Positions 10,095 through 27,720 of a stretch of 64,000 nucleotides of DNA are shown piece by piece (the first letter of the stretch is position 1; every line of letters starts with the position of its first letter). Location: contig CAJAHH010000057.1 of NCBI GenBank assembly GCA_903939515.1, forward strand, positions 1 to 64,000, given 5' to 3'. Under the pieces are notes generated by a model, which was given only the letters and a program-made list of their open reading frames with translations, was not told where the DNA came from and did no database searches. The position numbers and the translations under genes were made by a program. The DNA comes from an uncultured Verrucomicrobiota bacterium. GTDB lineage: Bacteria > Verrucomicrobiota > Verrucomicrobiia > Limisphaerales > UBA9464.

Positions 10095-12245
10095 ATGACG
10101 CTCGGTCACGCCATTGATTCCACCCGGTTCAGTAACCCCATTTTCAAACCTGATCCTTCTCTCCCGCTCCGCCGCCTCAAGGAGATGGGATTTTCAATCT
10201 CCGTCCAGCCTGCTGAAGGCTGGTTGCCGGCCAATCAACTCTTCCCCTGGCACTCGATCTTCGTCGTCAACTCGCCAGATCGCACGGCCTCTGGCGGAAG
10301 TGAGCATCTAGGGCTCGCGCTCATGCGTCGTCGCTATGGCCTGGTCTTCGACATCGAGAACAACGCTCGACCAGCCCATATCTTGAGTTGCAATTTGCCG
10401 GTAGGAACCCCGGACGAATCCGCCCAACTTCTATGCGATGAGGCACTAGAGTTCAAAGGGAATCGCCGTGAACCCCTGAAAGTCGCAGTACTCCATGGTC
10501 TTGCTCATCTGGAGTTCCGCGCTCGTTTCGAGCAACCGGTGCAGCGGGGGCGGTTTCTTCGGGTGCTCAACGGTCTGGATATCAAAGCCGAAGATGACGC
10601 GACTCGGGCGGCACTCCACTTGATCGCCCGTCATCGTTTGACGGAGGCCATCGATTTCGTCACCCGGGTGACCTATTCAGACAATTCAGAACTGCAATTG
10701 TCGGCCATCGATACACTCCTTTGGCTGGGCGAGCCCGGGATGACCGCGTTCCAATCGACAATCAGCAAGGGTCGCGGCGAGGCTCTCAAAACCCTCAAAG
10801 CGGTTGAGTCAGGCCTAGCCAATGATTTGGACCCCATGCACCGCCTGCTCACCTCCGAGGATTGGACCGAGCGGAACGGAGCCACTCGAGTCCTACGGTC
10901 CCTCGTGGTCGAGAAAGGCATCCCATCCGAAGGTCCGTTGGAGATCATTTTGAGTCGCTTCCGCGACGATACCGACAAGGACAATCGCAACTGCATCGGC
11001 TTTTGTCTGGGAGACCTGATTCCCCATATCGGCCCCGCCGCAGTGGAGCCGATCTTGGCCCTCGTCGCCGAACTTCAGGGTGATTCAGAACCTCTGCTCA
11101 ACGGGATTATCTTTGGCGGAGCCCCGGGTATGTCGGTGGGAAAGATCCAAGATCTGTGCACCTCCATCCCGCGCATCAGCACCCGGTTTCAGTCCGCTAT
11201 CCACCGTCTCTTCGCTGTGGCCAGCCCGGATTATCCGGCACGCATTGAGGATTGGCTCGAGAACGAATCAATTCAGGCCATTCAATGGGGGGGCGCACCC
11301 CCTGCCCCGGTTCGAGCCTGGTTCGACGATGCTACCAAGGTGCCAGCATGGCAGGTCCTCGATGCACTATTGCGGGGTACCCGAAAGGTCCACGACGGCT
11401 CTCTTGGGAGCGCTGCGATCTCCGCATCTCCATCATTGGCCAAAGCCCTAGAATGTCTGGCACCTCGTTTAATGAACAAGGGTGATGACACCACTTGGGC
11501 CGGTGTCGTGAGTTTGCTGGCGTCGAGCTCGACCCTTAATGGCATTCCAACAGCGTGGATGCGAGTGGCTCTCGGGGGGCTCAAAGCAGGCCCATCGTTG
11601 ACGGACACCCCTGAGAATATCGGGCGCCTCTTGGCCGTTTCTGCCAGTGCTCTGCAAGGCTGCGCTGATAATGCACTTGAACTTTTGGCAGCCATGCCAG
11701 AGCAAACTAGGAATCTCGCGGCTCACCTCCTCCAGACCATGCCGGTGGGTGTCGCTAATCTCCAAGGAGACGCCTGCAACCCACCTGATAATGGCTTTGG
11801 TCCGCGCGGCAAAGAGTTTCCCGGCCTAGGAACTGTGCAGCGCCAACCCTCCACCGCGTTGCTGGAAGGGCAGTTCCAGCAGTTCTTCGTGGCTCGCCAT
11901 CCGCGTTGGATGAGCACCGAGGAAGTTGTTCAGCAACTGATCCAGACGGCAAAGAAAGCCACCGACGACTACACAACCCACCTGTGGCCTTGGGATGAAC
12001 AGGATACCCGACGCCTCATCGAGGAAATTCCGACGATCCTGATCCAACAGGCCATCGTATCGATGCACGTGGTTCGGACTGCCAAACCGATCGCCAGCCG
12101 TCTTGCCCAAGCTTTGGGACCCAAGGCGGTCGAGGGGGATCTTGGTCCGCTGGTGACCGCTGCGACCCAGAACGTGCCCGAGGAAGCGCACGACACGGAC
12201 GGCGACCCTGACGACTTTGACGATTTCCTCAACGGACTTTGCTGA
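10095..12245 (+). CDS. HEAT-repeat-like protein, first gene of twin AAA/VWA operon, copy A
   Basis: 716 residues from ATG 10095. This start is chosen because the N-terminus then aligns without gaps with the copy B paralogue: both have exactly 33 residues up to RLK-x-MGF. A GTG at 10056 is the alternative. The N-terminal about 150 residues form an uncharacterised domain with conserved FPW, HLGL, RR-[YF]-GL and SC-x-LP-x-G. The middle is alpha-helical with HEAT/ARM-like repeats (for example DTLLWLGEPGMTAFQSTISK and WTERNGATRVLRSLV). The tail is acidic (DDFDDFLNGL). There is no signal peptide or membrane segment, so it is cytoplasmic. It is followed after 36 nt by the AAA ATPase gene. By analogy with helical-repeat adaptors it may present substrates to the ATPase/VWA pair; this is inference. 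I do not know a named family for it. Confidence 0.85.
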   Translation: MTLGHAIDSTRFSNPIFKPDPSLPLRRLKEMGFSISVQPAEGWLPANQLFPWHSIFVVNSPDRTASGGSEHLGLALMRRRYGLVFDIENNARPAHILSCNLPVGTPDESAQLLCDEALEFKGNRREPLKVAVLHGLAHLEFRARFEQPVQRGRFLRVLNGLDIKAEDDATRAALHLIARHRLTEAIDFVTRVTYSDNSELQLSAIDTLLWLGEPGMTAFQSTISKGRGEALKTLKAVESGLANDLDPMHRLLTSEDWTERNGATRVLRSLVVEKGIPSEGPLEIILSRFRDDTDKDNRNCIGFCLGDLIPHIGPAAVEPILALVAELQGDSEPLLNGIIFGGAPGMSVGKIQDLCTSIPRISTRFQSAIHRLFAVASPDYPARIEDWLENESIQAIQWGGAPPAPVRAWFDDATKVPAWQVLDALLRGTRKVHDGSLGSAAISASPSLAKALECLAPRLMNKGDDTTWAGVVSLLASSSTLNGIPTAWMRVALGGLKAGPSLTDTPENIGRLLAVSASALQGCADNALELLAAMPEQTRNLAAHLLQTMPVGVANLQGDACNPPDNGFGPRGKEFPGLGTVQRQPSTALLEGQFQQFFVARHPRWMSTEEVVQQLIQTAKKATDDYTTHLWPWDEQDTRRLIEEIPTILIQQAIVSMHVVRTAKPIASRLAQALGPKAVEGDLGPLVTAATQNVPEEAHDTDGDPDDFDDFLNGLC

Positions 12246-12281
12246 CACCGCCCACCGGACAACCAATCGAACACCCAACCC

Positions 12282-13721
12282 ATGAAGAATAAGAAAGTGC
12301 TGCTACGAGGCTTCGACAAGGCTTCACAACCTCTCGCTGAACAAACTCTCACCCGTGCCGGCTACACCCTGGCCTCGACCTTGACCACCGCCGAGGTGGT
12401 CGTCGTCGGACCGCTGGGTTTCGATACCGATGCGCTTGGACCCGATCCGAAAAAGGCTGTGCTGATTTGGGAGAATCTTCGAAAGAATCTCGAATCTCCG
12501 ACCACCGGGGCACAGCAAGACCTTCCTCGCCGCCCCGTCATCGAACGCGGCAATTCCTCCATTCGGATCGTCGGAATCGATGTGCCTCTTAGTGGCGCAA
12601 CCGGGGGACAGGTTCCTCCCGCCGAACGGTTTCATCGTATTTGCCTCGACGCTCCGTTCCTCAACGCGGCCCGGGCTGTCGCCTTAGGTGCGGCCCAGGG
12701 TCTTCCGACCAGCCTTGAGGGCGTCACCGCTGCAGCCAAAACCACCGTAGTCCTTTGGGTCGCCCACCTGCTCAACCAGCCGGTCGCACGACTGAATCTG
12801 AATGGGCAAAGCGATGTGACTGAACTGATCGGACGATACGTTCCAGCCGGACAGGGTGACGAAGACTGGAACCTGCCGGCGCTGGCACGTTTGGGGCATC
12901 TCCTGAAGCCGGAATGCCTCGCGATCATCCAGCAAGCGTTGTCGGAAAATCGATCATTGGACTGGGCGGAATCGACCCTCATCCAGGCACACACCGGTTT
13001 GACCCGTTCGCGTTGGCGATTCCAGGAGGGGATCGTTCCTCAGGCGATGCGCAAAGGTGGGTGGGTTCTGCTGGATGAAATGAACTTGGCTGAACCGCAG
13101 ATTCTGGAGCGACTCAACCCGGTCTTGGAATGCCCTCCCAGCCTTCTCCTCACGGAGGGTGATGGTGCTTGGTTGGGTCAGGGTGGCATCCCTGTTCATC
13201 CGGGTTTCCGGGTGTTCGCAGCGATGAACCCTTCCGATTACGCCGGACGATCCAACCTCAGCCCAGCCTTCAAGGATCGGTTTTTGAACTGGTTCCAGGC
13301 TCAACCGCCTGGCGAGGCCGAGTACCGCAGCCAACTTCAATTCCTCATCCATGGACAGCATCCCGAGGTCATCATCAATCGCTGCATCTATCAGGGAGAT
13401 CGGAGCGAACCGGTCCACGGTGAGCTTGCTTCGGTCGAAGGCATCGACGGGTGGATCGATGGTTTGGCGTCCTGTCAGGCGTCTCTCTCGATCGGAGTGG
13501 CCGGCAAACGCGATGGCATCCTGTTTACTCGACGCAGCCTGAACGCCCTTCTCGATCTTTGGGTGGCCCGAATCCGTGAGAGTGGCCCATCGGCGGCCCG
13601 TACTGCTCTTGGTGCCTCACTTAAAGACCTCTACTGGAATCGCATCGCCAATACGGCCGATCGGAATGCATCCATGGGTGTTGCAGAAGCTGCCGGCCTG
13701 CCCGTGGAGGACGCCCCGTGA
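12282..13721 (+). CDS. BRCT-like domain fused to midasin-like AAA ATPase, copy A
   Basis: 479 residues. Residues about 1-70 resemble a BRCT domain (KVLLRGF, then the AEVVVVGP strand), more clearly seen in the copy B paralogue. The AAA module (about 120-400) resembles midasin/dynein-type AAA_5 or MoxR ATPases: Walker A at 146-155 reads EGVTAAAKTT (Lys153), where the usual Gly before Lys is Ala; the following strand is RLNLNGQSD; Walker B is WVLLDE (265-266) followed by MNLAEPQ; sensor 1 is AAMNPSDYAGR (Asn316); a candidate arginine finger is in AFKDRF (Arg333). MoxR/midasin ATPases typically act with VWA proteins as remodelling chaperones. The stop overlaps the start of the VWA gene by 4 nt (GTGA), so the two are translationally coupled. 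Confidence 0.88.
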   Translation: MKNKKVLLRGFDKASQPLAEQTLTRAGYTLASTLTTAEVVVVGPLGFDTDALGPDPKKAVLIWENLRKNLESPTTGAQQDLPRRPVIERGNSSIRIVGIDVPLSGATGGQVPPAERFHRICLDAPFLNAARAVALGAAQGLPTSLEGVTAAAKTTVVLWVAHLLNQPVARLNLNGQSDVTELIGRYVPAGQGDEDWNLPALARLGHLLKPECLAIIQQALSENRSLDWAESTLIQAHTGLTRSRWRFQEGIVPQAMRKGGWVLLDEMNLAEPQILERLNPVLECPPSLLLTEGDGAWLGQGGIPVHPGFRVFAAMNPSDYAGRSNLSPAFKDRFLNWFQAQPPGEAEYRSQLQFLIHGQHPEVIINRCIYQGDRSEPVHGELASVEGIDGWIDGLASCQASLSIGVAGKRDGILFTRRSLNALLDLWVARIRESGPSAARTALGASLKDLYWNRIANTADRNASMGVAEAAGLPVEDAP

Positions 13722-15403
13722 ACCCGGTCCCTTCCATCAAAGGATTTCTGGACGAGTTGGAGCGTCTGGCACAACTCGTCTCCCACATGCCTGATCTCGT
13801 CTTGCGCGAGGGAGACGCCGGGACCGGCTGGTCCTTCAACCGTCGTGACCGCGTCATCACAATGGACGGCAGCAAACTCCGGTCCGAATCCCGCAACTTC
13901 AACCGAGGACTGGTCCTTCATGAAATGGCGCACGCCGTTCTCACGCGTATCTCTCCGTATCTCCAGGGCGATTATCTCTCGAGGCGCGATATCTACAGTG
14001 CGATCAATGCTTTAGAGGACATCCGCATTGAAAGCTGGTTGATGCGGCGCTTCGTCGGAGGACGAGAGTGGATCACCGAATACAACGGTAAACTGCTCCT
14101 GAACACGGTTCCGGAGTTCAAGAAACTCGAGTGGACCCAATTACCTCCCCTCCAGGCTTTCCTGGCAGCCGTTATGGCACGTTGGTGGCATGGCCCCGAA
14201 CAGGTGGACATCCCCAAGACTCTCAAGCCGCTCGTGGACGAGGCATGGCCTCATATCGAACGGATCTGCAAAGCAATCCCCGGAACTTGCCATGACTCCA
14301 CCTCACGCTGCCGTGCTGTCGATGAATATCGTCGATCGACCGCTCGCGGCCTCTACCTCCTGCATGACAGCGTCCGCGCCCCGGATGAGTTCGAGATGGA
14401 GGTACGCTTCAAGCAGGATGAATTCTGGAGCATCTTCGAGGAAGGTATCTTGCCGATTATCCAGCGACTCGCTCCACATGATCTGGACTCAACGCGAAAG
14501 AGCAACCGCGCCATGGATCATGCCTTGTTCAATCGGTGGGCAAGGGCTCAATCGGATGAAACTCTGGAATCGCTGTCGGCTGACAGAGCAACAGCAAAAT
14601 TCAATTCCAACCTGAGTAACTGCGGTCAAATTCGCGGACCAGGCGATTCACTTCCGTGGGATTCGAATCTCGGCGCCTACCTGAAAAGCGCCCAAATTCA
14701 GACCCATTCGATTGAGAAGCTCTCCGCTATCCTCCAGTCGCTCTTTCCGCCCAAGTGGTCCAGGTCATGGGAAGGACCCCGGAATTCCGGGATCCGAATC
14801 CGCATGCGGTCTGTTACTGAAGCGGAGGCAAATCCCCGTAACATCTTGAAGATCTGGGAGCGTCGATCACCACCGACCCGGTCGATTCCCCACGTGACCG
14901 CACTCATCGATCGTTCAGGCTCGATGGACGGTGAACGAATGGTGGCCGCCTTCGCAGGATGTGTTCTCGTTTCAGAGGTATGCCACAAGGCGGGAATTCC
15001 GTTCAGCTTGTTCACCTTCTCCAACCGCTGTGAAGAAGTTATCGGTTGGCAAACCGCCTTGGATGAAACCCAGCGTGGCCGGATGGGTGGATTGGCAAAA
15101 GCTGCGTCCGGGGGTACCAACATGGCAGAGGCCTTAAGGAAAGTGGGGCAACATTTGATGCACTCCCCGCATCAACATCGGGTGCTCGTGGTCTTGGGCG
15201 ATGGCGACGACGGTGACCATCAGGTGGCTGCGTTGGCGCGCCGCCTTTCCCAATCGGGTGTGCACCTAGTCGGTCTGGGAGTCGGTCCCGACACCGCTGC
15301 CATGGGCGATTGCATTCCAAACTCACGCACCTGCCTCATCCCTGGAGCGATTCCTGGAGCCTTGGCAAGCGTGTTGGAGCAGGTCGTCCGAGGCGATGAG
15401 TGA
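13718..15403 (+). CDS. HExxH metallopeptidase-like plus von Willebrand A protein, copy A
   Basis: 561 residues starting at a GTG that overlaps the ATPase stop. The N-terminal module has HEMAH (68-72) and, about 28 residues on, NALEDIRIE (Glu100, Asp101, Glu105), a gluzincin-like or CobT/NorD-like arrangement that suggests a metal site. The C-terminal VWA domain has a complete MIDAS: Asp398-x-Ser400-x-Ser402 (DRSGSM), Thr467 (GGTNM) and Asp495 (LGDGD). No signal peptide or membrane segment is present. The order ATPase then VWA matches MoxR/VWA and cobaltochelatase-type pairs, in which the VWA MIDAS contacts the AAA ring or its client. Whether the HExxH site cleaves peptides is unknown. The gene ends the copy A operon; a strong hairpin follows. 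Confidence 0.88.
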   Translation: MNPVPSIKGFLDELERLAQLVSHMPDLVLREGDAGTGWSFNRRDRVITMDGSKLRSESRNFNRGLVLHEMAHAVLTRISPYLQGDYLSRRDIYSAINALEDIRIESWLMRRFVGGREWITEYNGKLLLNTVPEFKKLEWTQLPPLQAFLAAVMARWWHGPEQVDIPKTLKPLVDEAWPHIERICKAIPGTCHDSTSRCRAVDEYRRSTARGLYLLHDSVRAPDEFEMEVRFKQDEFWSIFEEGILPIIQRLAPHDLDSTRKSNRAMDHALFNRWARAQSDETLESLSADRATAKFNSNLSNCGQIRGPGDSLPWDSNLGAYLKSAQIQTHSIEKLSAILQSLFPPKWSRSWEGPRNSGIRIRMRSVTEAEANPRNILKIWERRSPPTRSIPHVTALIDRSGSMDGERMVAAFAGCVLVSEVCHKAGIPFSLFTFSNRCEEVIGWQTALDETQRGRMGGLAKAASGGTNMAEALRKVGQHLMHSPHQHRVLVVLGDGDDGDHQVAALARRLSQSGVHLVGLGVGPDTAAMGDCIPNSRTCLIPGAIPGALASVLEQVVRGDE

Positions 15404-15416
15404 TCTTGAAATTGAA

Positions 15417-15454
15417 CCGGCAAACCACGCCCCATTGATTGCGCGGTTTGCCGG
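15417..15454. terminator. Hairpin between copy A operon and convergent gene
   Basis: CCGGCAAACC (15417-15426) and GGTTTGCCGG (15445-15454) form a perfect 10-bp stem, with a further CGC/GCG pairing inside. It lies 14 nt after the VWA stop and 60 nt before the stop of the convergent gene, where a bidirectional terminator would be expected. There is no good T-run on either side, so factor-independent termination is not certain. Confidence 0.55.
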
Positions 15455-15514: not shown

Positions 15515-16687
15515 TCAATTCTTCGGACCGAGCAGGTTAATTGGGATGCCTGGCAGCGCTGGGTAGGCCTCGAAGACTTGAATGACATCCGGTCGAACCC
15601 ATGGCGAAAGGGTTTTCCATGGGAGCATCACCACATAGTCGCCTTCAACGTAACATCCGGCCTCGTATTCCTCGAAGTGAACGAAGACGCCATCGGAGGA
15701 TAAGGTGAACTTGAGTTCCGCGAGGTCCTCTTCAGTGAATCTCAGAACTGGTCCTTGGATCTCTTCAATGCTGGAAGGCGGACCCCCAGGTTGAGCGAAC
15801 GAGGCTCCCTGACGACGAAGATCTTCCAACAACAAACGGCGGACCTCGTCCTGCCATCCGAATGGATGTTGAAAAAGAGCGGCAAAATCCAACCACTCTA
15901 CCCCAGCGGGACCATCGATGAAATTCGAATGTGCAATATGGGTATTCCCGTGAACTCCTCCCACGTTCCTGTAGCAGACATGGAGAACACTGACGGCCTT
16001 GGCGCTGCGATGATAAATCACCTTCCAACGCTCGCAGGGGCAGAATTCACATAGGGTTTCGCTGTCGAAAATCTTAAGCCCCAAGCGATTTCCGAATATT
16101 AACCGAACGCCATCGAAGAATTCATCCCATGACTCCTTTTCCATTCGTTGCGAATCCTGCTCCACCATCTCATCCAAAGCAGTCGGCTTCGCCCAACGAG
16201 GACGATGGGAGGACCATTCCACCGCGACACCGCGGTCACGGATATTGAAGCCGGATTTTGAAGCCGTTTCCACCATTCCGGTGATCACCCGAGGTACTAG
16301 TCGGATTTTGTTGGTCTGACCATCACTGGGTTGGAGGAGGAAGGCGTATCCGTCCCACTCCAACCTGGCTTCGATCGAATCCGAATCTGGATTCGGATTC
16401 GGCGGATGGTAACGGTGGACTGACCACCACCGAACTTGGCCGAATTCCGGATAAATCCGAATCTCCGGATGGAGCGCGTGAACTCTGAGCACAGGCCGCC
16501 CTTGATCTTGATTAACGTTCCCCATTTCAACCCAAGCAGGTCCGATGCCGGGGATCTCAACCAGCCCAAGAGTTGAACCGACGCGCAGGCTCGGAAGCTC
16601 AGTTGGCAACGGTTGCAGCAATGGAATTGCTAGGCCGATCAAAGTCAGGGCGAGTGCCGCGAGGATCCAGCGGCACCGTCGGATCAT
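15515..16687 (-). CDS. Membrane-anchored or secreted protein with RsiV/DUF3298-like C-terminus
   Basis: About 390 residues from the ATG at 16687. That start places a basic N-region (MIRRCRW) directly before a hydrophobic segment (ILAALALTLIGLAIPLL), as expected for a signal peptide or anchor. ATG 16753 and TTG 16807 are possible earlier starts. The C-terminal half resembles the DUF3298/RsiV fold: GGVHGNTHIAHSNF followed by AELKFTLSSDGVFVHFEEYE and YVVMLPWKTLSPWV. In characterised proteins this fold is the extracytoplasmic, lysozyme-sensing part of an anti-sigma factor, but no cytoplasmic anti-sigma domain is evident here. It converges on the copy A operon. Any link to the AAA/VWA system is only positional. 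Confidence 0.72.
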   Translation of the reverse strand: MIRRCRWILAALALTLIGLAIPLLQPLPTELPSLRVGSTLGLVEIPGIGPAWVEMGNVNQDQGRPVLRVHALHPEIRIYPEFGQVRWWSVHRYHPPNPNPDSDSIEARLEWDGYAFLLQPSDGQTNKIRLVPRVITGMVETASKSGFNIRDRGVAVEWSSHRPRWAKPTALDEMVEQDSQRMEKESWDEFFDGVRLIFGNRLGLKIFDSETLCEFCPCERWKVIYHRSAKAVSVLHVCYRNVGGVHGNTHIAHSNFIDGPAGVEWLDFAALFQHPFGWQDEVRRLLLEDLRRQGASFAQPGGPPSSIEEIQGPVLRFTEEDLAELKFTLSSDGVFVHFEEYEAGCYVEGDYVVMLPWKTLSPWVRPDVIQVFEAYPALPGIPINLLGPKN

Positions 16688-16916
16688 AGACTGAATCTTC
16701 TGTACCCCGCTGAGGAGCGAAGTTGAATTCACTAAGTTTGTTTTTGAATCCATGGAAAAAGCAGAGCTGGACTTTGTTCGAATCCAGATGGGGAAAGACG
16801 CTTTCAAAGCTGAACCACCTGCCTCCGGCTATCGAAGCCGATTTGTCAGGTGAATTCTTTTGGAACTGATTAGGGGTACACGAGAGGAATATTTATTCCG
16901 AACGCCAACCTTGGCC

Positions 16917-17882
16917 TCAGCAGGACATCCAGTTCTCGTGGAGAAAGACTCCCAGTTGGTCATCTGAGCTTCCGAAGTAGGTGGCACGATGCCCAGCCGC
17001 GCGGCGGACCTCGAGTCGAATCCGCGGAGCGATATGCTGCCGCTCAATTAGTTCTCCAGCGGTCGCTGCCTCGAGCCAAGCCGCGATTTGATCCGGATGT
17101 TGCTCCCCATCCGTCGTTTCCACCTGACGCGCGTCTTTGGCCTGGTAGGCGGCATCCACCAAGGCGGCCTCCAGGTGTTTGTCGAAATAAGTCCGCGCCA
17201 ACTGGTTGGACGCAAAGACGTCGGCCGTACTAATCCGCCCGTTGGTTAAAAAAACGAAGCCGACGGCATCCGGATAGCCCGAAATCAGTTTTGAAAAGTG
17301 ATCTTTAACCTCCAAGACCCGAGCCCGCATCCGGGGATGCTCCATCATCAACTGGTAGGAACTCGGCGAAACGGGCGAAGCCACGTCTCCTTCCAGATAT
17401 TTGGAAAGGTGTCCGTGGGACTTCGAAATGCTCGACCAGACACCGCTCTGGGATTTGCCCAACTTCGCCTGCATCAGCGCCTCCTTGGTCAGCATGCTAT
17501 CTGAACCCGAGAAACGGGAGACGTCTTCACCGCGCCGCTGAGCCCAACGCTGGCGCTCAACACAATACGCAGGGATCGGGAGACGTGAACCGGCGGGCAC
17601 GACAAGGTCTACCCCAAGTGTTCGATCCTGACGTCCTCCTTTGACGATTTCACCGGCCACAACCAGCAAGTCCTTGTCTGGCGACAGATTCTCAATCTCT
17701 AACCGGCCCACCGATCCGGTTTCGTGAACCACCACCACCTTTCTGGAGAGGGCCTCTGCGAGGGTCTCGAATTGACTGGGATCACACCGATCGGGGCCGT
17801 GCACGAGGTACACGGTGAGATCAGCTGAGTGATGCGGTCCGGTGATAGACTTGAAGGAGCGGGAAGAGGCTTCAGTGTTCAT
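16917..17882 (-). CDS. ARPP-1 (DUF6569) domain protein
   Basis: 321 residues from ATG 17882; a GTG at 17903 is an alternative start. The central core is typical of the ARPP-1 family: DLLVVAGEIVKGGRQDRTLG, then LVVPAGSRLPIPAYCVE and a following RW. ARPP-1 was named from genomic association with ADP-ribosylglycohydrolase and phosphatase-like genes and is predicted to act in NAD/ADP-ribose metabolism; its biochemistry is not established to my knowledge. Here it lies 49 nt downstream of a PARG-type glycohydrolase on the same strand, matching that reported association. It has no signal peptide, so it is cytoplasmic. The pair probably forms one operon. Confidence 0.87.
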   Translation of the reverse strand: MNTEASSRSFKSITGPHHSADLTVYLVHGPDRCDPSQFETLAEALSRKVVVVHETGSVGRLEIENLSPDKDLLVVAGEIVKGGRQDRTLGVDLVVPAGSRLPIPAYCVERQRWAQRRGEDVSRFSGSDSMLTKEALMQAKLGKSQSGVWSSISKSHGHLSKYLEGDVASPVSPSSYQLMMEHPRMRARVLEVKDHFSKLISGYPDAVGFVFLTNGRISTADVFASNQLARTYFDKHLEAALVDAAYQAKDARQVETTDGEQHPDQIAAWLEAATAGELIERQHIAPRIRLEVRRAAGHRATYFGSSDDQLGVFLHENWMSC

Positions 17883-17910
17883 GATCGATGAGCACCATCG
17901 CACAGCCTCA

Positions 17911-17925: not shown

Positions 17926-17931
17926 CCCCGC

Positions 17932-18819
17932 TTACCCAGCTTCTTCGATTTCAGAAAATGTGTCGCGGAATGGCCCAAGGGACCGTCGGTTTTCGGACCA
18001 ATCGGTAATGGCGAAAACCACTTCTTCAAAGACCCCACCGAAACGCCATTGAAGTGCCTCCCGAAAGTCGTGCGCCGTTCGGAAAGGATCGTTGCCAAAT
18101 GCCCCGCAGCCCCAGGCTCCAAGGACCAAACTGCGATATCCGAACGCGGCGGCAATCTCGAGCACCCGTTCAATTCGGAGTTGCAGTAGTTGGGCAGAGC
18201 GCTGCTCCCCTACCCGAGGCGCGTACGGAGCGGCACAGGTGAGGATGTCCAATGGCCACCACGGTATAGACACCCCTGCGTCAGTCCGAAAGACAGGAAC
18301 TCGCCGAGAAAGTATGGCCCAACTGGAGAATTCCGGCACCGGTTGCTGTCGATGAGACTCATACATGGGATCGTTTTCCAAGGTGGCGTGCAATGCACTG
18401 GACCGGCAGAGCACCTCCTCCTGCGCGCGCGCCCCGATCAGAAATCCCCCGCCCGGTTGGATTCCGTTGGCGAAATTCAGAGCCAAGGGACGGCGACCAG
18501 TCTGATGCAGGAGACGAGCGGCGACCAAGGTCGTCTGATTGGCAACTCGAACCCGAGTTAACTGAGATAACTGTCCAAAAGAAGGCGCAGGCAGTTTGGC
18601 GGTCGCGGGCAGGCTGAGCACGGATGCCTTGCAGGCAGCCACGGCATCACTCCAATCGGTGCGGGTTCCATCATTAAGCAGGTAGTATCCATTCCGAACG
18701 GCCTTTATCGCACTGCGACCCAACTCGGCAGCAAGAGGGCTGCCCAGACACAAGGTGGCACGATTTTCGTAAGCGAGTTGTTCAGAGTCGAGGCACTCGA
18801 CACAATTGATGAGTTTCAT
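17932..18819 (-). CDS. Bacterial-type poly(ADP-ribose) glycohydrolase (TIGR02452 family)
   Basis: 295 residues, close to the family's usual size. The catalytic signature of bacterial PARG macrodomains is intact: PGGGFLIGARAQEEVLCRSS, with Gly123-Gly124-Gly125, Gln133, Glu134 and Glu135. The preceding PLALNFAN strand and the later VLGAWGCGAFGNDP loop, typical of macrodomains, are also present. Such enzymes hydrolyse the ribose-ribose bonds of poly(ADP-ribose) and may act on related ADP-ribose adducts. No signal peptide is present. It is the first gene of a probable operon with ARPP-1. A perfect TGACA-N5-TGTCA palindrome lies 96 nt before the start, the same element as before both AAA/VWA operons, which suggests co-regulation. 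Confidence 0.92.
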   Translation of the reverse strand: MKLINCVECLDSEQLAYENRATLCLGSPLAAELGRSAIKAVRNGYYLLNDGTRTDWSDAVAACKASVLSLPATAKLPAPSFGQLSQLTRVRVANQTTLVAARLLHQTGRRPLALNFANGIQPGGGFLIGARAQEEVLCRSSALHATLENDPMYESHRQQPVPEFSSWAILSRRVPVFRTDAGVSIPWWPLDILTCAAPYAPRVGEQRSAQLLQLRIERVLEIAAAFGYRSLVLGAWGCGAFGNDPFRTAHDFREALQWRFGGVFEEVVFAITDWSENRRSLGPFRDTFSEIEEAG

Positions 18820-19544: not shown

Positions 19545-20096
19545 TTAGACAGCAAACGCGATCGACTCCTTGCCCATCATCACCTTGGCGATCCGGTCAT
19601 TGGAGGTGGGCTTCGTCGGCTTCATCGACCGCTTCGAGGGGCCGAGGCACTCGACCTTGTCCAAGCGGAATGCCCTCAAGACCTGGCGATCCTCGATCGC
19701 CACATCTGCAATGAGAGTAGAACCGACGTAGTCCTGGAACTGACCGGTGAGTACCAACGGGCGTGCCTCGAGGATGCGGCGGCTGTTGAACGGGCGGATA
19801 AGCACCCAAGCACCCACATTGAGTGCCTTCAGCAGAAATTCCGTGTTAGGCGATTTCGAGGGTGACGCTACAAAAAAATCCCGGAGATCCGTCTCAGGGA
19901 GGGTTTTAAGCATCAACCCTTCCGGGCTGGCTTCGATATTTCGGTCGTACCCACGCAAAATACTGACGTAGCGTCGGACGGTTCGGGTAGAAATTTCAAG
20001 GTTTTCGGCAAGTTCACGGGCTTTCACGACCCGTGCGACATGTGATTTCAGGTATTGGTCAAGCTGGGACAAGCGGAGGAGGATTGGTTGCATCGG
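19545..20096 (-). CDS. Small helix-turn-helix/WYL-domain transcriptional regulator
   Basis: 183 residues from ATG 20096 (MQPILLRLSQLDQYL). A longer form from 20150 is possible but adds a sequence without similarity to regulators. Residues about 5-55 are an HTH_11/DeoR-type winged helix (ARELAENLEISTRTVRRYVS). The C-terminal part is a short WYL-like domain with the strand pattern WVLIRPFNSRRILEARPLVL and ending RAFRLDKVE. WYL domains bind nucleic acid or nucleotide ligands and WYL regulators often sit in defence or stress islands. The gene is monocistronic, with its own strong terminator. It is a candidate for the protein that reads the shared TGACA-N5-TGTCA sites; this is inference. Confidence 0.8.
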   Translation of the reverse strand, partial: PMQPILLRLSQLDQYLKSHVARVVKARELAENLEISTRTVRRYVSILRGYDRNIEASPEGLMLKTLPETDLRDFFVASPSKSPNTEFLLKALNVGAWVLIRPFNSRRILEARPLVLTGQFQDYVGSTLIADVAIEDRQVLRAFRLDKVECLGPSKRSMKPTKPTSNDRIAKVMMGKESIAFAV

Positions 20097-20527
20097 CGGA
20101 GGAAGTCGGATCGGGGACGGCCCGCTTCGTAGGAGGTACCTGCTCCGCACCGAATCAAGCTGTAGCGATCACGAACTTCACCAAGACCCTAGCATCGCTT
20201 TTCTTTTCTGGCAAGTTGTTTTGTGGTGTTTTTTTGATTTAACCATGATGCCAACCTGTTTCCAACACCATCTAAGCTCGACGCCCAAGCACGGGGCAGA
20301 CCAGTGGAGTTTCAAAAAACTAAGCATTTTGGGGAATTTTACCCCGGTTTAGCGCTGCTAGTAGACTGGATCCGCTTCCTAAATCAGCAACTCCCAGCAA
20401 ACGCCAAAAAAGCGGGCTAGCTCTGCAACGCACCAAGATTCCGTCTGAAATCAGTTGGCTCTCCTCTCAACGCCCACGGACATTCCCAGAGATTGAAGCC
20501 CTCTCTCCGGAAAATTTGACCGCCTCA
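20097..20527. other. Intergenic region between WYL gene and winged-helix gene
   Basis: About 430 bases with no supported gene. Composition shifts toward AT, with poly-T tracts near 20195-20240. This should contain the WYL promoter and the end of the copy B transcript. No hairpin with a T-run after the 20528 stop was found. Confidence 0.45.
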
Positions 20528-22171
20528 TCAAGCCGATATCTCAGAACTCTCTTGACCAAGGAGATCGCTACGCCGTTTCTTCTCAAAATCATAAAAATTT
20601 TGTTCAAGCGATTTATTCTCGCTCCTGAACCTATTTATTATTGATATCAATCCATCTATAGTGCGTCGCAATTCATCATTTTCTTGTTTCAGTTTCTTAT
20701 ATATGTATGAATGCCCCCCGAAGGATTTTAATTTTTCCTCATCCAATGCTCGACTACTTCTTCGGAAAGAATCCTTAGGATGTGATGGGTTCGCAACACC
20801 TCCTACGGCAGGGTGATTTGAAACAGTGTTCCACATATCCATTGAATCTGAAGTCCAGCCATCTTTTTGCTGGGTTGATTGTATTATATGAAAATCACTT
20901 TTACGCAACTTCATCAACCTTTCCGACACATCAACAGAGTCGTTATCATGCTGATTTCGATCAACTAAATCTTTTGACTGAGAGAGGAAATATTTCTCTT
21001 CAACATCGTTACAAGTGTTATTATTGACAAAAAATCGACCCGCAGAACATGATATTTGTTTATGAATTGAAACTCCAATCCTAATCAAATCTTCAGGGAC
21101 CACTTTCAATAGATCGTCCGCCATTGATAGGTACTCCCGCCATAACCTTTCGGCACAACGGTAACCTTGCTCGCTGACCCGCGCCGCCTTGCTGCGACCA
21201 CCCCAAGAACGCACTTGAACTAAGCCCAAGTTACCGTCGCCATCACCCAAGTGCTTGATGCATCGCGAAAAAACGGAGGTATTGACTCGGTGAGAATGGA
21301 CTAGATACCGGCTGATCTGATTAAAAGAGTAACATCCAAATTTGTCGTTTTCTATGTAAGAGTCTTTCGCATCAGAACAACTCGTAATACTCTCACTCAA
21401 GTATAACGCAAGAATAACTAATATGTCGGCCTCGTTGAGACTCAACTGATGGCGGATAGCGAGATCCTCACATGGCTGAGACAACTGTCTTCCTATTCGC
21501 AATACCGCAACCACTACGTCTAACGCTGACAACTCAACGGCACCATTCTGAAACTCAGTCAAATCTGATTTGTTTAATAAATTAACTGGACGACCGCTCC
21601 GAGAAATGTGTTGCGATTGAAGCACTCTTCTTAAATCCAACAAAACATTTTTATGAATTAACAACTGATTGTCTTTGCGATTTAAATCGCCTCCAAACGC
21701 CCAAGATTCACAGATAGAAGATAAATCAAATAGCAACCGATTCCATTGAATCAATCCTTGTTCACTGAATTGAATACAAGCGACCCGTTTGGGATCCTCA
21801 AGCCACTTGGAATCAGAGCATAAGAATCGAACTCTTCGATGGACGGTAGCCACCGAGATTCCCAATTCTTGTTGCAAACGCGATACTGTCACCTCTCCAG
21901 CAGTCTCTCGACTCAACGCATCAACTGCCAAAAGGAACTCAAAATCTTCGGTATCGAGAGCGTATCGATTCGATGTAAGGATGCCTGAGTCCAATGCCAG
22001 CAAGATCTCTCGACGCGCCTCAAAAAGGCTCACCAAAAAGTCAACACGGTGCGACTCGGGCAACGGTTCCAAAGATCCGATGAATTCTCCGCTCAACGTT
22101 GAGTTTGCCGTTTGCATTCGATGTAACGTACTTGCCAATTGAGAGCGAATCAACCCTTTGTCATTCAGCAT
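20528..22171 (-). CDS. Large AT-rich protein with two winged-helix regions and a coiled coil
   Basis: 547 residues. A probable winged helix lies at about 70-145 (TVSRLQQELGISVATVHRRV). A second MarR-like region spans about 245-345 (SLNEADILVILALYL, then YSFNQISRYL and a WGGRSKAARVSEQG wing). A polar, probably disordered linker follows at about 375-480, and the C-terminus (about 485-535) is a coiled coil (IYKKLKQENDELRRTIDGLI). There is no membrane segment. The gene begins 85 nt after the copy B VWA stop on the same strand, so it is probably the operon's last gene; copy A has no equivalent. Its composition is far more AT-rich than the three upstream genes, pointing to separate acquisition. It could regulate the island or tether the complex to DNA. 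Family unrecognised. Confidence 0.8.
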   Translation of the reverse strand: MLNDKGLIRSQLASTLHRMQTANSTLSGEFIGSLEPLPESHRVDFLVSLFEARREILLALDSGILTSNRYALDTEDFEFLLAVDALSRETAGEVTVSRLQQELGISVATVHRRVRFLCSDSKWLEDPKRVACIQFSEQGLIQWNRLLFDLSSICESWAFGGDLNRKDNQLLIHKNVLLDLRRVLQSQHISRSGRPVNLLNKSDLTEFQNGAVELSALDVVVAVLRIGRQLSQPCEDLAIRHQLSLNEADILVILALYLSESITSCSDAKDSYIENDKFGCYSFNQISRYLVHSHRVNTSVFSRCIKHLGDGDGNLGLVQVRSWGGRSKAARVSEQGYRCAERLWREYLSMADDLLKVVPEDLIRIGVSIHKQISCSAGRFFVNNNTCNDVEEKYFLSQSKDLVDRNQHDNDSVDVSERLMKLRKSDFHIIQSTQQKDGWTSDSMDMWNTVSNHPAVGGVANPSHPKDSFRRSSRALDEEKLKSFGGHSYIYKKLKQENDELRRTIDGLISIINRFRSENKSLEQNFYDFEKKRRSDLLGQESSEISA

Positions 22172-22256: not shown

Positions 22257-23987
22257 CTAAGTCGCGACCTGTGACCCTCGGTCAAAATTCTGGATCGATG
22301 TTCGCGAGGCCTGGAACAGGATGCGGGTGAAGGCTCCGGCGATGTCTCGGGGGTGCAGGTTGGTCTGGCAGTGGGTGATGAAGTGGGCGAGTTTCTCCGA
22401 ACCGGGGCCCAGGCCCAGGCCGAGGACGTTGATCCCGTCGCGCTCCATCTCATCGACGCGGGCCTTGGGATCATCGTCATCCGAGGGGATGCCGTCGCTG
22501 AGCACCACGACGAACGGATCGGTGGTACCGAGGTGGAGCACCTGTTGGTGGACCTTGGACAGGGCCGCTGCCAGCAGGGTTCCACCCGACGCCGCCTGAG
22601 GTAGGCCGCCGATGCGTCCCTGAATCTCCTCGTCCAAGGGTTCATCGACGTCTAACAGCAGGCGGCAGCCTTCCGAGAAGGTGAAGATTGCCAAAGGGAT
22701 GCCGACCCGGTGACACACCTCGGCCAACAACACCGTCGCCCACTGCGCAGCATCGATGCCCTCACCCTTCATGGATCCTGAGACGTCCAGCAGCAGGGTG
22801 ATCGAAGCGTCATTGCGGACGGGCGGTTGCCGACGCTCCCATACTTGGTCGAGTCGTTCTGGATCGGCCTCGGCACTCAGGGCGGCACGGAGGTCCAACC
22901 GGGTTCCGGATCGCCTCGGGCCAATCCACACACGGTCGATGCGAGGATGCAGCAACCGCAGTACCTCGTCGCCCAATGGTTCGATGACCGAGGCCTGCGC
23001 CCTCTCGCAGGCACGGTAGGCCTCAGGATCGGATGGCCACCGGTCAGAAACCGACTCCTGAGAAGGAGTGGAATGGGAACTCCGACCCGGGCCGCGGATC
23101 CCTCTCCGTCCGAGGATCCAGGCCCGACTGCCGGCCCCGCCGAAGGCAGACTCGTCGGGCCCGAGATGCCCTTGATTCAACCAACGCTCCAGCCATTGCA
23201 TGAGCCGTCGCCCGCAAACGATGACCTGACCCGGCGGCTCGAATTCGTGGAGGACCGGGAGGAAGGCGGTCGTGAACTGATCCCACATCCGGAGCTGGCA
23301 GAGGCGCGTCTCCAACTCCCAGGTCTCGCGTCCCGCTGGCAATGGCATCTCGTCATAGACCGACGACATAGGGTGGTTCGAGAAGGCTTGCTGGATCGCT
23401 TCAAGCGACGTTTCTCCCCGCGGATAGGCTTGGCAGATGGCCTCTAAATGGGGCCAGACTCGGTCGACCAACGCCCGAATTTGTTCGTTGGCTGCCACGC
23501 CGGCCTCCCGGAACCACCATCGGTTCAACACCGCCGATATGAAGTAGGGCAGGCGATGGTGGTCGCGCACGACGCGGCTTTCGGAGGAGTACGGCACGCG
23601 CAGCAAGATATCGTTGTATTCAGTGATCAACGGCCGCGAGCCAGGGAATCGGGACTGGAGCCAGGTCTCGATGCGGCAGTCCTCCAACGCGTTGATCAAG
23701 GCGAAGATTGGGGGTTCCCGAAGGTAGGAATCCCGCAACAGCGGATGCAGTCGCGTGATCGCCGCATGGGCGCACTCATGCAGCACCAGGCCCTTATTGA
23801 AATTCCAGGACTGGGCGCGGAGCCGGTGCGCATCCATCGAAATCCGACGATCGCCGTGGGCATAGCTCCAACCGGAGCCCGCCGGGCCTTCGACCAACCG
23901 AAGGTCGGATTCCCGGGACACCAGACAGGCTAGTTGCCGCAGTTCCTCCAGCCTCTCCGGGTCGAGGGGATGCAGTCGCGAACTCAC
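22257..23987 (-). CDS. HExxH metallopeptidase-like plus von Willebrand A protein, copy B
   Basis: 576 residues, homologous over the full length to the copy A protein. The putative metal site is conserved: HECAH (70-74) and NALEDCRIE (Glu102, Asp103, Glu107), with the flanking GLVLHE and LITEYND also shared. The VWA domain near the C-terminus has MIDAS residues in LLLDVSGSMKGEG, SGGTLLAA and VVLSDGIPSD. The start overlaps the stop of the ATPase gene by 4 nt. Both putative active sites persist despite extensive divergence between copies, which argues that both are functional. It is followed by the AT-rich winged-helix gene rather than by a terminator. Confidence 0.88.
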   Translation of the reverse strand: MSSRLHPLDPERLEELRQLACLVSRESDLRLVEGPAGSGWSYAHGDRRISMDAHRLRAQSWNFNKGLVLHECAHAAITRLHPLLRDSYLREPPIFALINALEDCRIETWLQSRFPGSRPLITEYNDILLRVPYSSESRVVRDHHRLPYFISAVLNRWWFREAGVAANEQIRALVDRVWPHLEAICQAYPRGETSLEAIQQAFSNHPMSSVYDEMPLPAGRETWELETRLCQLRMWDQFTTAFLPVLHEFEPPGQVIVCGRRLMQWLERWLNQGHLGPDESAFGGAGSRAWILGRRGIRGPGRSSHSTPSQESVSDRWPSDPEAYRACERAQASVIEPLGDEVLRLLHPRIDRVWIGPRRSGTRLDLRAALSAEADPERLDQVWERRQPPVRNDASITLLLDVSGSMKGEGIDAAQWATVLLAEVCHRVGIPLAIFTFSEGCRLLLDVDEPLDEEIQGRIGGLPQAASGGTLLAAALSKVHQQVLHLGTTDPFVVVLSDGIPSDDDDPKARVDEMERDGINVLGLGLGPGSEKLAHFITHCQTNLHPRDIAGAFTRILFQASRTSIQNFDRGSQVAT

Positions 23988-25510
23988 TCTCCTTCCTCCA
24001 GCGGCAGTCCAGCGACCTCAGCGAGGCCGATTGCAGCTTTCCGGTCGGCGCCGGGCGAGAGCCTGTTGAGGTAAACTGTGGTTAGCACCGAGGCGAGCTG
24101 ACTCCGGGGACAGGCCTCGGGGAAACGGCGACGCATCGAGGCCCACAGGCGGGCGCAGGCTTCGAGGCTCCGTCGGGTGAAGACGTAGCGTTCGCGGCGC
24201 CCCCGACCGAGCGACGAGGCCCGCCCCCCTTCCCCGCCCGCCGAAGCCATGGCGAAGTGGAAACAGGCAATCATCGACAGGTAGTCCTCGATGCGCGGGA
24301 CCTCGGCCAACTCGGGCAGCAGCGGCTTGCCGGGCATCGCCTGATAGCAGACACGGCCCACCTGGAACTTGGGGTGGACTCCCTCGATGAGGAACCTCAG
24401 CTGAGCGACATACTCGGCCTCGCCAGGAGCATGGGCGAAATACCACTGGAGCCAGCGATCCCGGAACGCCGGGCTGAGGATAGACCGCCCCGAGTACTCC
24501 GCCGGGTTGAGCGTCGCGAACAGACGGAACTCCGGGTGCACCGGCAGACCGCCGGGACCCCACCGGGTGTGATCGCCTTCAGACATCAGGAGAGTGGACG
24601 GCGTCTCGAGAACGGGGTTGAGCCGTTCGATCACCTGCGGTTCCGCCAGGTTCAATTCATCAAGCAGCACCCAGGCTCCGGACCGCAGGGCCTGCGGAAT
24701 CACCCCCTCGGCGAAGCGCCAGGTGCGCTCCTGGAACCGCTCACGGGCGGCGATGAAGGTGCGCTCGGCCCACGTCAGCGGCCGCTGCGCAGCGAGCGCT
24801 TCGTCGAGGAGGGCTCGGGTCTCCTTGCGCAGCCGAGGACCGAGGGCGGCCAGTGAGGCGAGATCCCAATCCTCCCCGCCACGGGTGGGCACGTAACGAC
24901 CGATAAGTTCTCCAGTGTCGGTCTGGCCATTGAGGTTCAGACGCAGGACCGGCTGGCCCAGAAGGTGTGCCAACCAGAGCACCGCGGTGGTCTTCGAAGC
25001 CGCCGTGGTGCCCTCGAGGGCCGTCGGCATCCGCTCGACAACGCCTAGGGCAACCGCGCGGGCCGCTCTGAGGAAAGGCTCGTCTAGGCAAAGGTTGGCG
25101 AAGCGGTCGGCTTCCGGGCCGTCCGACGGCATGTCGCCGGTGCGGGGAACAACGACATCGAGGATTCGCACGAAGTCGGGGGTGATCTCGATGGCACTGC
25201 GCTCTGCGAGGGGCGATGAGGCGGTGACACTCTCAGCCGCTCCCGGAGACTCGAGGTCGGACCAATCCACGACCCTGAGCTGCCGCTGACGGGCCAGGGT
25301 GGCCACCTTGTCGGCCCCCGACGGACCGATGATGACGAGATCGGCGGCCTGCAGGCTCTGGACGAGTTGACCCCCGGCGCTGTTTACGAAGGCAATGGCG
25401 GGCGATTCATCGGCCTCGGTGAAGCCGCGCAACAAGATGCGACGGCCGTTAATGGTCTTGTTCACGGTGGGATCGGGGGTCTTCAAAATCGGGAGGTCAG
25501 AACTATCCAT
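23984..25510 (-). CDS. BRCT-like domain fused to midasin-like AAA ATPase, copy B
   Basis: 508 residues. Residues about 21-88 read like a BRCT domain: RRILLRGFTEADESPAIAFV, then GGQLVQSL, ADLVIIGPSGADKVA and LRVVDWSDLE. The AAA module is strongly similar to copy A: Walker A EGTTAASKTT (166-175, Lys173; Ser in place of the usual Gly), RLNLNGQTDTGELIGRYVP, Walker B WVLLDELNLAEPQ, sensor 1 ATLNPAEYSGR and AFRDRW as likely arginine finger. The Walker A and LDELNLA motifs are nearer to midasin than to ordinary MoxR. A BRCT domain on a bacterial MoxR/midasin-type ATPase is unusual; BRCT domains elsewhere bind phosphopeptides, DNA or poly(ADP-ribose). Confidence 0.88.
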   Translation of the reverse strand: MDSSDLPILKTPDPTVNKTINGRRILLRGFTEADESPAIAFVNSAGGQLVQSLQAADLVIIGPSGADKVATLARQRQLRVVDWSDLESPGAAESVTASSPLAERSAIEITPDFVRILDVVVPRTGDMPSDGPEADRFANLCLDEPFLRAARAVALGVVERMPTALEGTTAASKTTAVLWLAHLLGQPVLRLNLNGQTDTGELIGRYVPTRGGEDWDLASLAALGPRLRKETRALLDEALAAQRPLTWAERTFIAARERFQERTWRFAEGVIPQALRSGAWVLLDELNLAEPQVIERLNPVLETPSTLLMSEGDHTRWGPGGLPVHPEFRLFATLNPAEYSGRSILSPAFRDRWLQWYFAHAPGEAEYVAQLRFLIEGVHPKFQVGRVCYQAMPGKPLLPELAEVPRIEDYLSMIACFHFAMASAGGEGGRASSLGRGRRERYVFTRRSLEACARLWASMRRRFPEACPRSQLASVLTTVYLNRLSPGADRKAAIGLAEVAGLPLEEGE

Positions 25511-25515
25511 GGGTT

Positions 25516-27720
25516 TCAGAGCAATTCATCGAGATCGAGACGGTTCTTTATGGCTTCGTAGTCGCTCGAGCCTCTGTTCGTGGAACTCGGGGCTGAAGCT
25601 GGGTGTTCTCCCCGCTTGAATTCGTGGCGCGCGCGGGCGAGGAGCACCAGCGGGGTCAACGGGCAATCCGGGGGTGGCGGATCCACCAGCGACGCAATCC
25701 ACTCCCCTATCGTCACCAACTCCGAAACTCCGCTGCAGACACAGGCAACGATGGCCTCAAAGACCTCGACCTGAGGCGTTGATCGGATCCATGTGGTCGC
25801 AGATTCGGACCGGGTGGAGTCGAGGATTAGATGGCCCCAAGCGGCCCGATGCTGGCTTGAGATGATCAGACCCAGGAAGGGTTTCCTGTCGAACCGCCAA
25901 GCCTCCGGCTTCATCCCGAAGATCGGCTGATACTCAAGTGGAAGGCTCTCAGGAAAGCCGCGAAGCAATCGGTCCGCTCCCAGGGGAGCGGCGTCGTTGC
26001 GACGCGGCCCGACCCCACGGGCAGGCGGCAGGGCGCCGACATCGGTCGCGCACCCTGCCCCGACAGGGATTCCTGCAAGGAAGCTGCGCGCAATCTCACG
26101 GACCACGGGGTTCGTTTGGGAGAGCATGCGGATGGCCACTTTGGACGCGTCTAGCCGGGACGCGGCAATCGCGAGCAGGCGCCCCACGCCGGCGGGCGTT
26201 GGATCCGGAACCGCCGGCCCGCCGAAGCCGACCGCGCACCGCAACTCCTCGGACAGCACGTTCGTGGGTACACGGGAAGCGGCGATCACACCGCCCATCA
26301 TAGACCAGACACCCTCTCTTCCAATGTTGGCGGCCCGGGTGAGCAACTGCTCCCAGATCGGCATCGTTTCCGGGTGGGCGTTGAGATGCTGGATGCCCAG
26401 GCAAGCCACTTGGGACCGGAGGCGCTCCTGGTGCATGGCTGCCACCACGAGGTGCCCAGGCATGTTGCCGCCATCGAGGAACCAGGGGGCGACCGAGGCA
26501 GGCACCGTGAGTCGACCCCATTGAAGGGATTTGACGACCTGAGGACACAACCAGTCGGCAGGGCTCGGAGCCACCCCATCAATCCAGGTCAGGCAGCGGT
26601 TCAGGGCGGCCGAAGCGACCGGCTTTCCGTCGGTGAAGAGGTCCCGCATCTCTTCAAAGATCCGCGCGTCGACATGGGTTCCCACCCCAAACGACAGGGC
26701 GTCCATCAATTCGCCGCTGGGATCGTCACCGCACAGTTCGCAGACCTGGCTAAATATGCGGTCGATACCCTCCATTGGGTCGGCGGCGACCGCCTTACCG
26801 AGACTCTTGGAAAGCACCCAGCGGCAGTCCCGGTCCGTCTCCACCTTCATCCGTGCCAGGAGGACCTCGAGGGCCAGGCTTGGGTCGATGGATTTGGTGT
26901 CAATGAGATCACCCAGCACGCGGGAGGCCTCCGACCGGTTGAACCATTGCTGGTCATTGAGGAAGGGATCCAACGCGTCGAGTGTTCCTCCCTCGATGCT
27001 TTCAAGGACTGCGACGACCGGCTCCTGAACAACCTTCCGATCAACCTTGGCGAGGCGTTCGAGCTCCAGCCGTCCAGGTTCGCCCAACCGGGCGAGGCAC
27101 CCCGCGGCCCTCAATGCGAACTTACCGTCACCCAAGGTCAAGATGCGGCGGATGGTCTCGACCATCCCCGCCGGTGCGTGCACCGAGGTGAGCTGGAAGA
27201 TGGCCTTGAAGGCTTCCTGAAACATCCATCCCCGATCCACCAAGGCCCGAGTGGCGTCAGCGAACCGTCCCTCCTTTGATCCCAGCGCGACCTCGAGGTG
27301 GGCCAGACCGCAGAGCATCGCGCTGACCACCTCGTCGTCACCTTCCTCGCCACGGCCGATCTCCAACAACAGCAGACGGTAAAAAATCTCGGCCTGTGCT
27401 TCGGCCCTGCCCAGAGGAAGGCCGCAACTGATGGCCGCGAGGGTCCGGGTCTCGAGGTCTTCGCTGTCCTGCAGACCAAATCGCCGACTTGCCACCGACA
27501 AGCCCAAATGGGCGTGCGCCGTTCGGCGACGGTCCGGATCTAGGACCACCACCAACCACCAAGGAAACACATCGGCCAGGCTTGGCAGGCCGACCTCCGC
27601 TTCGGGCCCCTCTGCATGCCAGAATCCCATCGCCTTGAGGCGGGAGGAGAGAATTCCCTGCGGAAGGATTCCGGGGTGGTTGGGAATGGGTTGACCGGAG
27701 CCGATCGTGATCAAGTGCAT
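25516..27720 (-). CDS. HEAT-repeat-like protein, first gene of twin AAA/VWA operon, copy B
   Basis: 734 residues from ATG 27720; ATG 27732 is the alternative. The later start gives a gapless N-terminal alignment with copy A. Shared features are FPW near residue 59, HLGL-x(5)-RR-[FY]-GL, SC-x-LP-x-G, CGLAHLE, the helical repeats (RAAGCLARLGEPGRLELERL; WFNRSEASRVLGDLI) and a tract containing LLAIAASRLDASK versus LLAVSASALQGCA. The C-terminus again ends acidic and hydrophobic (RLDLDELL). It is separated from the ATPase gene by only 5 nt, so the three genes form one operon. A near-perfect copy of the island operator lies 28 nt before the start. Confidence 0.85.
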   Translation of the reverse strand: MHLITIGSGQPIPNHPGILPQGILSSRLKAMGFWHAEGPEAEVGLPSLADVFPWWLVVVLDPDRRRTAHAHLGLSVASRRFGLQDSEDLETRTLAAISCGLPLGRAEAQAEIFYRLLLLEIGRGEEGDDEVVSAMLCGLAHLEVALGSKEGRFADATRALVDRGWMFQEAFKAIFQLTSVHAPAGMVETIRRILTLGDGKFALRAAGCLARLGEPGRLELERLAKVDRKVVQEPVVAVLESIEGGTLDALDPFLNDQQWFNRSEASRVLGDLIDTKSIDPSLALEVLLARMKVETDRDCRWVLSKSLGKAVAADPMEGIDRIFSQVCELCGDDPSGELMDALSFGVGTHVDARIFEEMRDLFTDGKPVASAALNRCLTWIDGVAPSPADWLCPQVVKSLQWGRLTVPASVAPWFLDGGNMPGHLVVAAMHQERLRSQVACLGIQHLNAHPETMPIWEQLLTRAANIGREGVWSMMGGVIAASRVPTNVLSEELRCAVGFGGPAVPDPTPAGVGRLLAIAASRLDASKVAIRMLSQTNPVVREIARSFLAGIPVGAGCATDVGALPPARGVGPRRNDAAPLGADRLLRGFPESLPLEYQPIFGMKPEAWRFDRKPFLGLIISSQHRAAWGHLILDSTRSESATTWIRSTPQVEVFEAIVACVCSGVSELVTIGEWIASLVDPPPPDCPLTPLVLLARARHEFKRGEHPASAPSSTNRGSSDYEAIKNRLDLDELL

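Follow-up and report, generated by a model that had tools for sequence, protein, structure and literature searches.

A patchily distributed operon for a MoxR-type ATPase with a predicted BRCT domain, an HExxH-VWA protein and a variable third component in Verrucomicrobiota

An uncultured Verrucomicrobiota bacterium (UBA9464; GCA_903939515.1, here genome G000) carries divergent copies of an operon for an AAA ATPase with a predicted BRCT domain and a zincin (HExxH)-VWA protein, and we propose that this operon may well code for an accessory, horizontally exchanged protein-remodelling machine, probably proteolytic, of the MoxR AAA+/VWA co-chaperone kind. Two of the copies, A and B, lie in the 64,000 nt of contig CAJAHH010000057.1 that we analysed (the window). 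The operon has a recurrent set of domains, a variable third part and a patchy presence among genomes, and its chromosomal site was found both occupied and empty.

In copy A, a HEAT-like scaffold protein is encoded on the forward strand at 10095–12245 (716 aa from the ATG at 10095, a GTG at 10056 being another possible start), followed by the predicted BRCT-AAA ATPase of the AAA_5/MoxR-midasin type (12282–13721, 479 aa, PF07728 E 5.9e-15) and the zincin-VWA protein (13718–15403, 561 aa, PF00092 E 4.4e-10). Copy B, on the reverse strand, codes for the HEAT-like protein at 25516–27732 (738 aa, with an ATG at 27720 as an alternative start), the ATPase at 23984–25510 (508 aa) and the zincin-VWA protein at 22257–23987 (576 aa). 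The two inward-facing operons have the same gene order and a 4 nt overlap between the ATPase and VWA genes, and the gap between the HEAT and ATPase genes is 36 nt in copy A and 5 nt in copy B. BLASTP comparison of A with B gave 29% identity over 571 aa for the HEAT-like proteins (E 8e-49), 47% over 489 aa for the ATPases (E 6e-150) and 37% over 564 aa for the VWA proteins (E 1e-107), a likeness that, judged from these alignments, far exceeds chance for all three. The original prediction that the same three genes occur twice with conserved spacing was confirmed by the coordinates, the 4 nt overlaps and the BLASTP results, while its claim of full-length homology held for the ATPase and the VWA protein but not for the HEAT-like protein, whose alignment spans about 80% of the length and leaves the C-terminal part unaligned. 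Common to both copies are the HExxH motif, an EDxRIE helix, the MIDAS (DxSGSM, SGGT and DG), the Walker B motif (LLDE) and the arginine of SPAF[RK]DR, so that the active-site residues are retained as had been predicted, except that the P-loop is non-canonical in both.

The AAA_5 domain of the ATPase was recognised in both copies (PF07728, E about 1e-14), and a profile search against the PDB matched midasin best, then dynein, NorQ, CobS and CbbQ. The P-loop reads EGVTAAAKT or EGTTAASKT in the two window copies, with no Gly before the Lys, and EGxTA[AST][SA]KT in nine aligned ATPases and in a further copy, C, none of which matches the canonical GxxxxGK[ST]. This canonical form is usual for MoxR AAA+ ATPases, although it does not strictly define them; because the usual Gly is missing in all members, ATP hydrolysis is uncertain. 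The Walker B motif (LDE), the sensor 1 NP and the SPAF[RK]DR arginine are retained in nearly all of these ATPases.

The N-terminal domain of the ATPase aligns across the class-wide relatives, and its 90 residues, which are very divergent, gave no match to a BRCT profile by sequence. In an AlphaFold2 model of the copy B ATPase, poor as a whole (pLDDT 51.4), residues 20–85 reached a pLDDT of mostly 71–86. When compared by fold, these residues matched the BRCT domain of LigA (Z 9.3, 72 aa, rmsd 2.7), followed by Rad4 (9.1), TopBP1 (8.7) and RFC1 (8.6), and ranks 1–18 were occupied throughout by BRCT-bearing chains (Z 8.1–9.3). The modelled fold therefore supports assignment of the N-terminal domain as a BRCT domain, and the BRCT-fused AAA protein of the original prediction finds its backing in fold matches with Z up to 9.3, not in sequence profiles.

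The VWA domain of the third gene product has an intact MIDAS and matches midasin, CobT and NorD in profile searches. Its AlphaFold model was of moderate quality (pLDDT 62.8), and the list of PDB matches to it, which was filled by VWA domains, included NorD (Z 20.7, 164 aa, rmsd 1.9) and, lower down, the midasin MIDAS domain (Z 19.2, 207 aa); taken whole, the protein resembles by fold the CobT-like VWA proteins of phages (best E 7e-17). Its first 205 residues contain HExxH and N..ED.R.E, invariant in 11 aligned members. All 11 VWA proteins matched phrog_459, annotated as 'peptidase', and phrog_249 was also matched. The SprT-like family PF10263 was matched by six of the 11 at E 1 or better (best 4e-5), the window copies falling under the Pfam cut-off, and hhalign of the zincin domain with Escherichia coli SprT gave a weak match (probability 14%). 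The HExxH motif is no proof of proteolysis, as there are related VWA proteins with a role in metal insertion.

HEAT repeats in the first gene product are weakly supported (PF13646, E 5e-5 and 9e-4, under the Pfam cut-off); its profile gave only weak matches in the PDB, to artificial alphaRep proteins and gasdermin-B, and PADLOC gave a marginal OloA match. The HEAT gene precedes the ATPase gene in copies A, B and C and in genomes G464 and G485, which form the HEAT group, while in seven other genomes of the class (G158, G804, G788, G890, G757, G767 and G853) it is replaced by a gene for a small protein of about 130–160 aa, unrelated to the HEAT-like protein and without a match in the PDB. Genome G788 carries a second copy of this small protein, and the two kinds of third gene were never found together at the loci read. 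The ATPase and VWA genes were adjacent at nearly every locus read, as drawn by a simple custom gene caller; at loci L044 and L046 the ATPase or VWA gene was found by search only. The ATPase-VWA pair is thus the core and the third gene is variable, so that the predicted three-part operon stands for its two constant members but not for the HEAT gene.

At a threshold of E 1e-20 or better, the VWA protein was found in at least eight of 384 genomes of the class and at least five of 320 of the order, these tallies being lower bounds because few candidates were scored per genome; the ATPase search gave at least two of 388 genomes of the phylum, and a scan of genome contigs with two narrow peptide patterns gave two loci. 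Viral contigs contained no relatives, phages gave no VWA relative and only remote CobS/MoxR matches to the ATPase, and plasmids gave only remote AAA matches, such as a CobT-type pair in Paraburkholderia. In that plasmid (locus L031, 4530–7480), the genes for the AAA ATPase and the 'CobT' VWA protein have glycolytic neighbours, namely eno, tpiA and a gene for an aldolase, which is another kind of MoxR-VWA context. Across the loci, the homologues form a conserved operon that is inherited together, not a scatter of housekeeping genes.

A third operon, copy C, lies elsewhere in genome G000 and is split over contigs C151 and C141, which meet within a few bases when aligned to the same operon in G394. 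In a tree of the VWA protein, A, B, C and the G464 protein group together (support 100/99), and the protein of G464, a genome of a different family of the order, falls with B and C and not with A (86/89, moderate). Therefore, A and B are old lineages whose split predates the split from another family, so that the 'twin' copies of the original prediction are not recent ones. Comparison of the A-type genes of G000 and G397 gave a dN/dS of about 0.1–0.2 where dS was informative, and copies A and C are under purifying selection where measured. The maintenance of three old sublineages side by side, with purifying selection on A and C, suggests that they were retained for different targets rather than for dosage.

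To the right of copy B, the hipBA-kdsB-msbA-like genes are syntenic with G401 (96% identity) and G394 (87%) up to 27919–27920, and in both relatives the sequence then runs straight into smc, which leaves the site empty there. Next to the same smc and UDP-glucose-dehydrogenase-like genes, G397 has an operon of the A type and thus an occupied site. The right boundary of the variable segment can be placed at 27920–27925, at the 3' end of hipA, where relatives without A and B cease to be syntenic, while the left boundary is undefined in G000 because smc is on another contig. The hipBA genes (27925–29464), directly adjoining copy B, are probably older than the insertion, since they are also present in relatives without the island. 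Upstream of copy A, at 8060–9372, there are IS66-like transposase remnants, with similar sequences elsewhere in the genus (88% in G404). No convincing direct repeats bounding the island were found. For the C operon, dS between G000 and G394 was 0.02–0.18, as against 0.54–0.82 for kdsB, the msbA-like gene and smc, so that by sequence divergence the operon looks recently exchanged; it is part of a longer segment of similarity between the two genomes, and transfer of a larger piece is therefore likely. Taken together, the patchy presence, the multiple copies, the occupied and empty site and the dS values pointing to exchange support an accessory distribution.

Between copies A and B, all on the reverse strand, are genes for a DUF3298-like protein with an N-terminal hydrophobic segment (15515–16807), an ARPP-1 family protein (16917–17903, PF20208 E 1e-46), a microbial PARG/macro-type enzyme (17932–18819, PF10021 E 6.7e-33, TIGR02452 E 1.4e-49), an HTH_11 regulator weakly similar to WYL-type regulators (19545–20150) and a winged-HTH protein of 547 aa with no clear family (20528–22171), which starts 86 bp past the copy B VWA gene. 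The winged-HTH gene is AT-rich and lies in a stretch (20001–22000) with a GC content of 0.447, compared with 0.55–0.65 around it. The original prediction had taken the regulators and ADP-ribose enzymes around the copies as a hint of a specialised machine, but the comparison does not support them as parts of the system, since beside the other copies compared we found no homologues of the ARPP-1 gene, the PARG-type gene or the regulators, and ARPP-1 is present in one of 19 genomes of the genus. The ARPP-1 and PARG-type genes are better regarded as an adjacent module that is not conserved with the system; ARPP-1 belongs to a module known from ADP-ribose conflict systems, in which vWA chaperones and WYL regulators may also occur (PMC9503650). 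The exception is the DUF3298-like gene, a homologue of which (46% identity) directly follows the VWA gene at one locus, L025, making its product a possible fourth component.

DNA-processing genes neighbour the system at three of about 12 loci. At L049, genes for the small protein, the ATPase, the VWA protein and a 117 aa protein are followed by recC, recB and recD, all on the same strand and either closely spaced or overlapping, in what is apparently one operon; at L027, recD and recB lie convergently next to the homologues, and at L026 the HEAT gene is preceded, at a distance of 57 bp, by an OGG-like gene (PF21790). These neighbours are not conserved within a genus, L048 being without them. 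A start of an SbcD-like gene noticed by eye after the VWA gene at L005 comprised 53 aa on the contig, gave no match in searches and was not counted. Other neighbours include, in G158, a second MoxR-like ATPase followed by what by eye is a DUF2201-like metallopeptidase/VWA-like protein (L028, 15642–18033), adjoining the ATPase-VWA pair, accompanied by an LRV/HEAT protein (L028, 13718–15784). In G804, the copy lies among small genes that by eye look like an accessory island of DUF433/PIN, BrnTA and Vsr types (L044, 1082–7065), while a gene that by eye is RpoD-like adjoins the VWA gene in G757 (L046, 7737–9287) and a sigma-70 gene recognised by Pfam lies near the copy in G788 (L045, 14895–16370).

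From the domains we infer how such a machine might be assembled and act. The ATPase would form a MoxR-type hexamer, on which the VWA protein would dock through its MIDAS-bearing domain, like NorD on NorQ or CobT on CobS, and ATP-driven movement would then offer substrate to the N-terminal HExxH zincin domain or open it. The BRCT domain and the exchangeable third protein, either the HEAT scaffold or the small protein, would choose the site of action, which would most likely be nucleoprotein, either host proteins bound to DNA where it is broken or cross-linked, or the complexes with which a phage replicates or packages its genome. Because an invariant zincin motif is found on the VWA protein and a predicted BRCT domain on the ATPase, a remodelling protease aimed at nucleoprotein is the most economical reading. 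In its boldest form, which we consider improbable as it stands, this would be a BRCT-guided AAA+/zincin-VWA machine stripping or cleaving DNA-bound proteins, a bacterial machine functionally equivalent on nucleoprotein to p97-SPRTN or midasin, with exchangeable targeting subunits, carried on a mobile defence or repair island.

As to its role, defence is favoured by the distribution and mobility, and DNA processing by the neighbours. An anti-phage conflict system, possible though doubtful, would be activated by infection through the third protein as a sensor, the zincin then cleaving host or phage proteins as proposed for MoxR-vWA ternary systems, whose peptidase effectors have been published (PMC7159879, PMC12839542). 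The multi-copy, accessory and exchanged state of the operon, its occupied and empty site and its exchangeable third component agree with this, as do the hipBA genes close to copy B, a PADLOC candidate of DUF4143 type next to L025 and the toxin-antitoxin-like genes seen by eye around L044. However, PADLOC matched no core protein beyond the marginal OloA hit, no VMAP, iSTAND or beta-propeller partner was recognised (the VMAP profiles lying outside the searches), and the zincin forms the N-terminal part of a fusion, an arrangement shared with the phage assembly pairs. Less probably, the operon may serve DNA repair or act on DNA-protein crosslinks, in which case the BRCT domain would recruit an unfoldase and a SprT-like protease to nucleoprotein that is damaged, much as p97-SPRTN or Wss1 work. 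The predicted BRCT fold, the SprT-like similarity, the recBCD and OGG-like neighbours and the presence of smc at the insertion site would fit, but the SprT similarity is weak, repair genes occur at a minority of loci, smc is a neighbour of the site only, and a repair pathway would not usually be so patchily distributed.

A CobST-like chelatase or a NorQD-like metal-insertion chaperone is very unlikely. The closest cellular structures do include NorQD and CobST, and an alternative reading makes the cobST pairs of phages parts of a cobaltochelatase (PMC8651126); a chelatase is nevertheless disfavoured because only two of 12 carriers have CobN (PF02514), and G000, a draft that is 96% complete, is among the 10 that lack it, while for both roles no metalloenzyme gene is a conserved neighbour and the BRCT and HEAT parts are foreign to CobST and NorQD systems. 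Least probable of all is a domesticated virion-assembly module like the metallopeptidase-VWA and MoxR pair proposed for group 2.2 jumbo phages (PMC7824862), to which the whole-length fold similarity to phage CobT-like proteins and the phrog_249 and phrog_459 matches would point, but which the genomic context disfavours, as no phage structural genes were recognised near any copy, no relative was found in viral contigs and phages yielded remote AAA matches only.

For the proposed remodelling machine, an ATPase with a predicted BRCT domain and a VWA protein with an invariant zincin motif provide a handle on where it works and whether it cuts. MoxR-VWA pairs are widespread, and the substrate is known for few of them. 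The core stays constant while the HEAT gene is swapped for the small-protein gene, which amounts to a natural experiment on the role of the third component, and the three sublineages in one genome are an internal test of target specificity.

By the broad definition of a MoxR AAA+/VWA pair, the operon belongs with the known systems, having an AAA_5-type ATPase adjacent to a MIDAS-bearing VWA protein. In NorQD and related pairs, the AAA+ ring pulls or twists the VWA partner to remodel the target (PMC13036017). Metallopeptidase-VWA/MoxR pairs are already published, while for the BRCT-AAA ATPase with a HEAT or small partner we found no description in the open-access literature and no PADLOC model, in line with the original prediction, which recognised no known system in this three-part combination. 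The jumbo-phage pair shares a MoxR AAA+ ATPase and a vWA protein with an N-terminal metallopeptidase domain, the HExxH-VWA feature found here, but no BRCT or HEAT partner is described there, and the system in the window is chromosomal, in Verrucomicrobiota. Cellular and phage CobS-CobT have in common with it the split AAA+/VWA pair and the similarity of the CobT C-terminal VWA domain, and differ in that here the genome has no CobN, the HExxH motif is invariant, the ATPase bears the BRCT domain and there is a HEAT or small third protein. NorQ-NorD resembles it in the MoxR-type partner and in NorD being among the closest solved VWA folds, whereas no nor genes were recognised near the copies and the BRCT and zincin domains are additional here. 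Midasin (Rea1) gave the best PDB sequence matches for the AAA and MIDAS-VWA parts, yet it is one giant multi-AAA chain acting in ribosome assembly, as opposed to a split pair with BRCT and zincin domains. Finally, the MoxR-vWA ternary conflict systems (PMC7159879) share the MoxR ATPase, the vWA protein, a variable third component and an accessory distribution, while the operon described here is set apart by its HEAT-like or small third protein, the N-terminal zincin on the VWA protein and the predicted BRCT domain on the ATPase.
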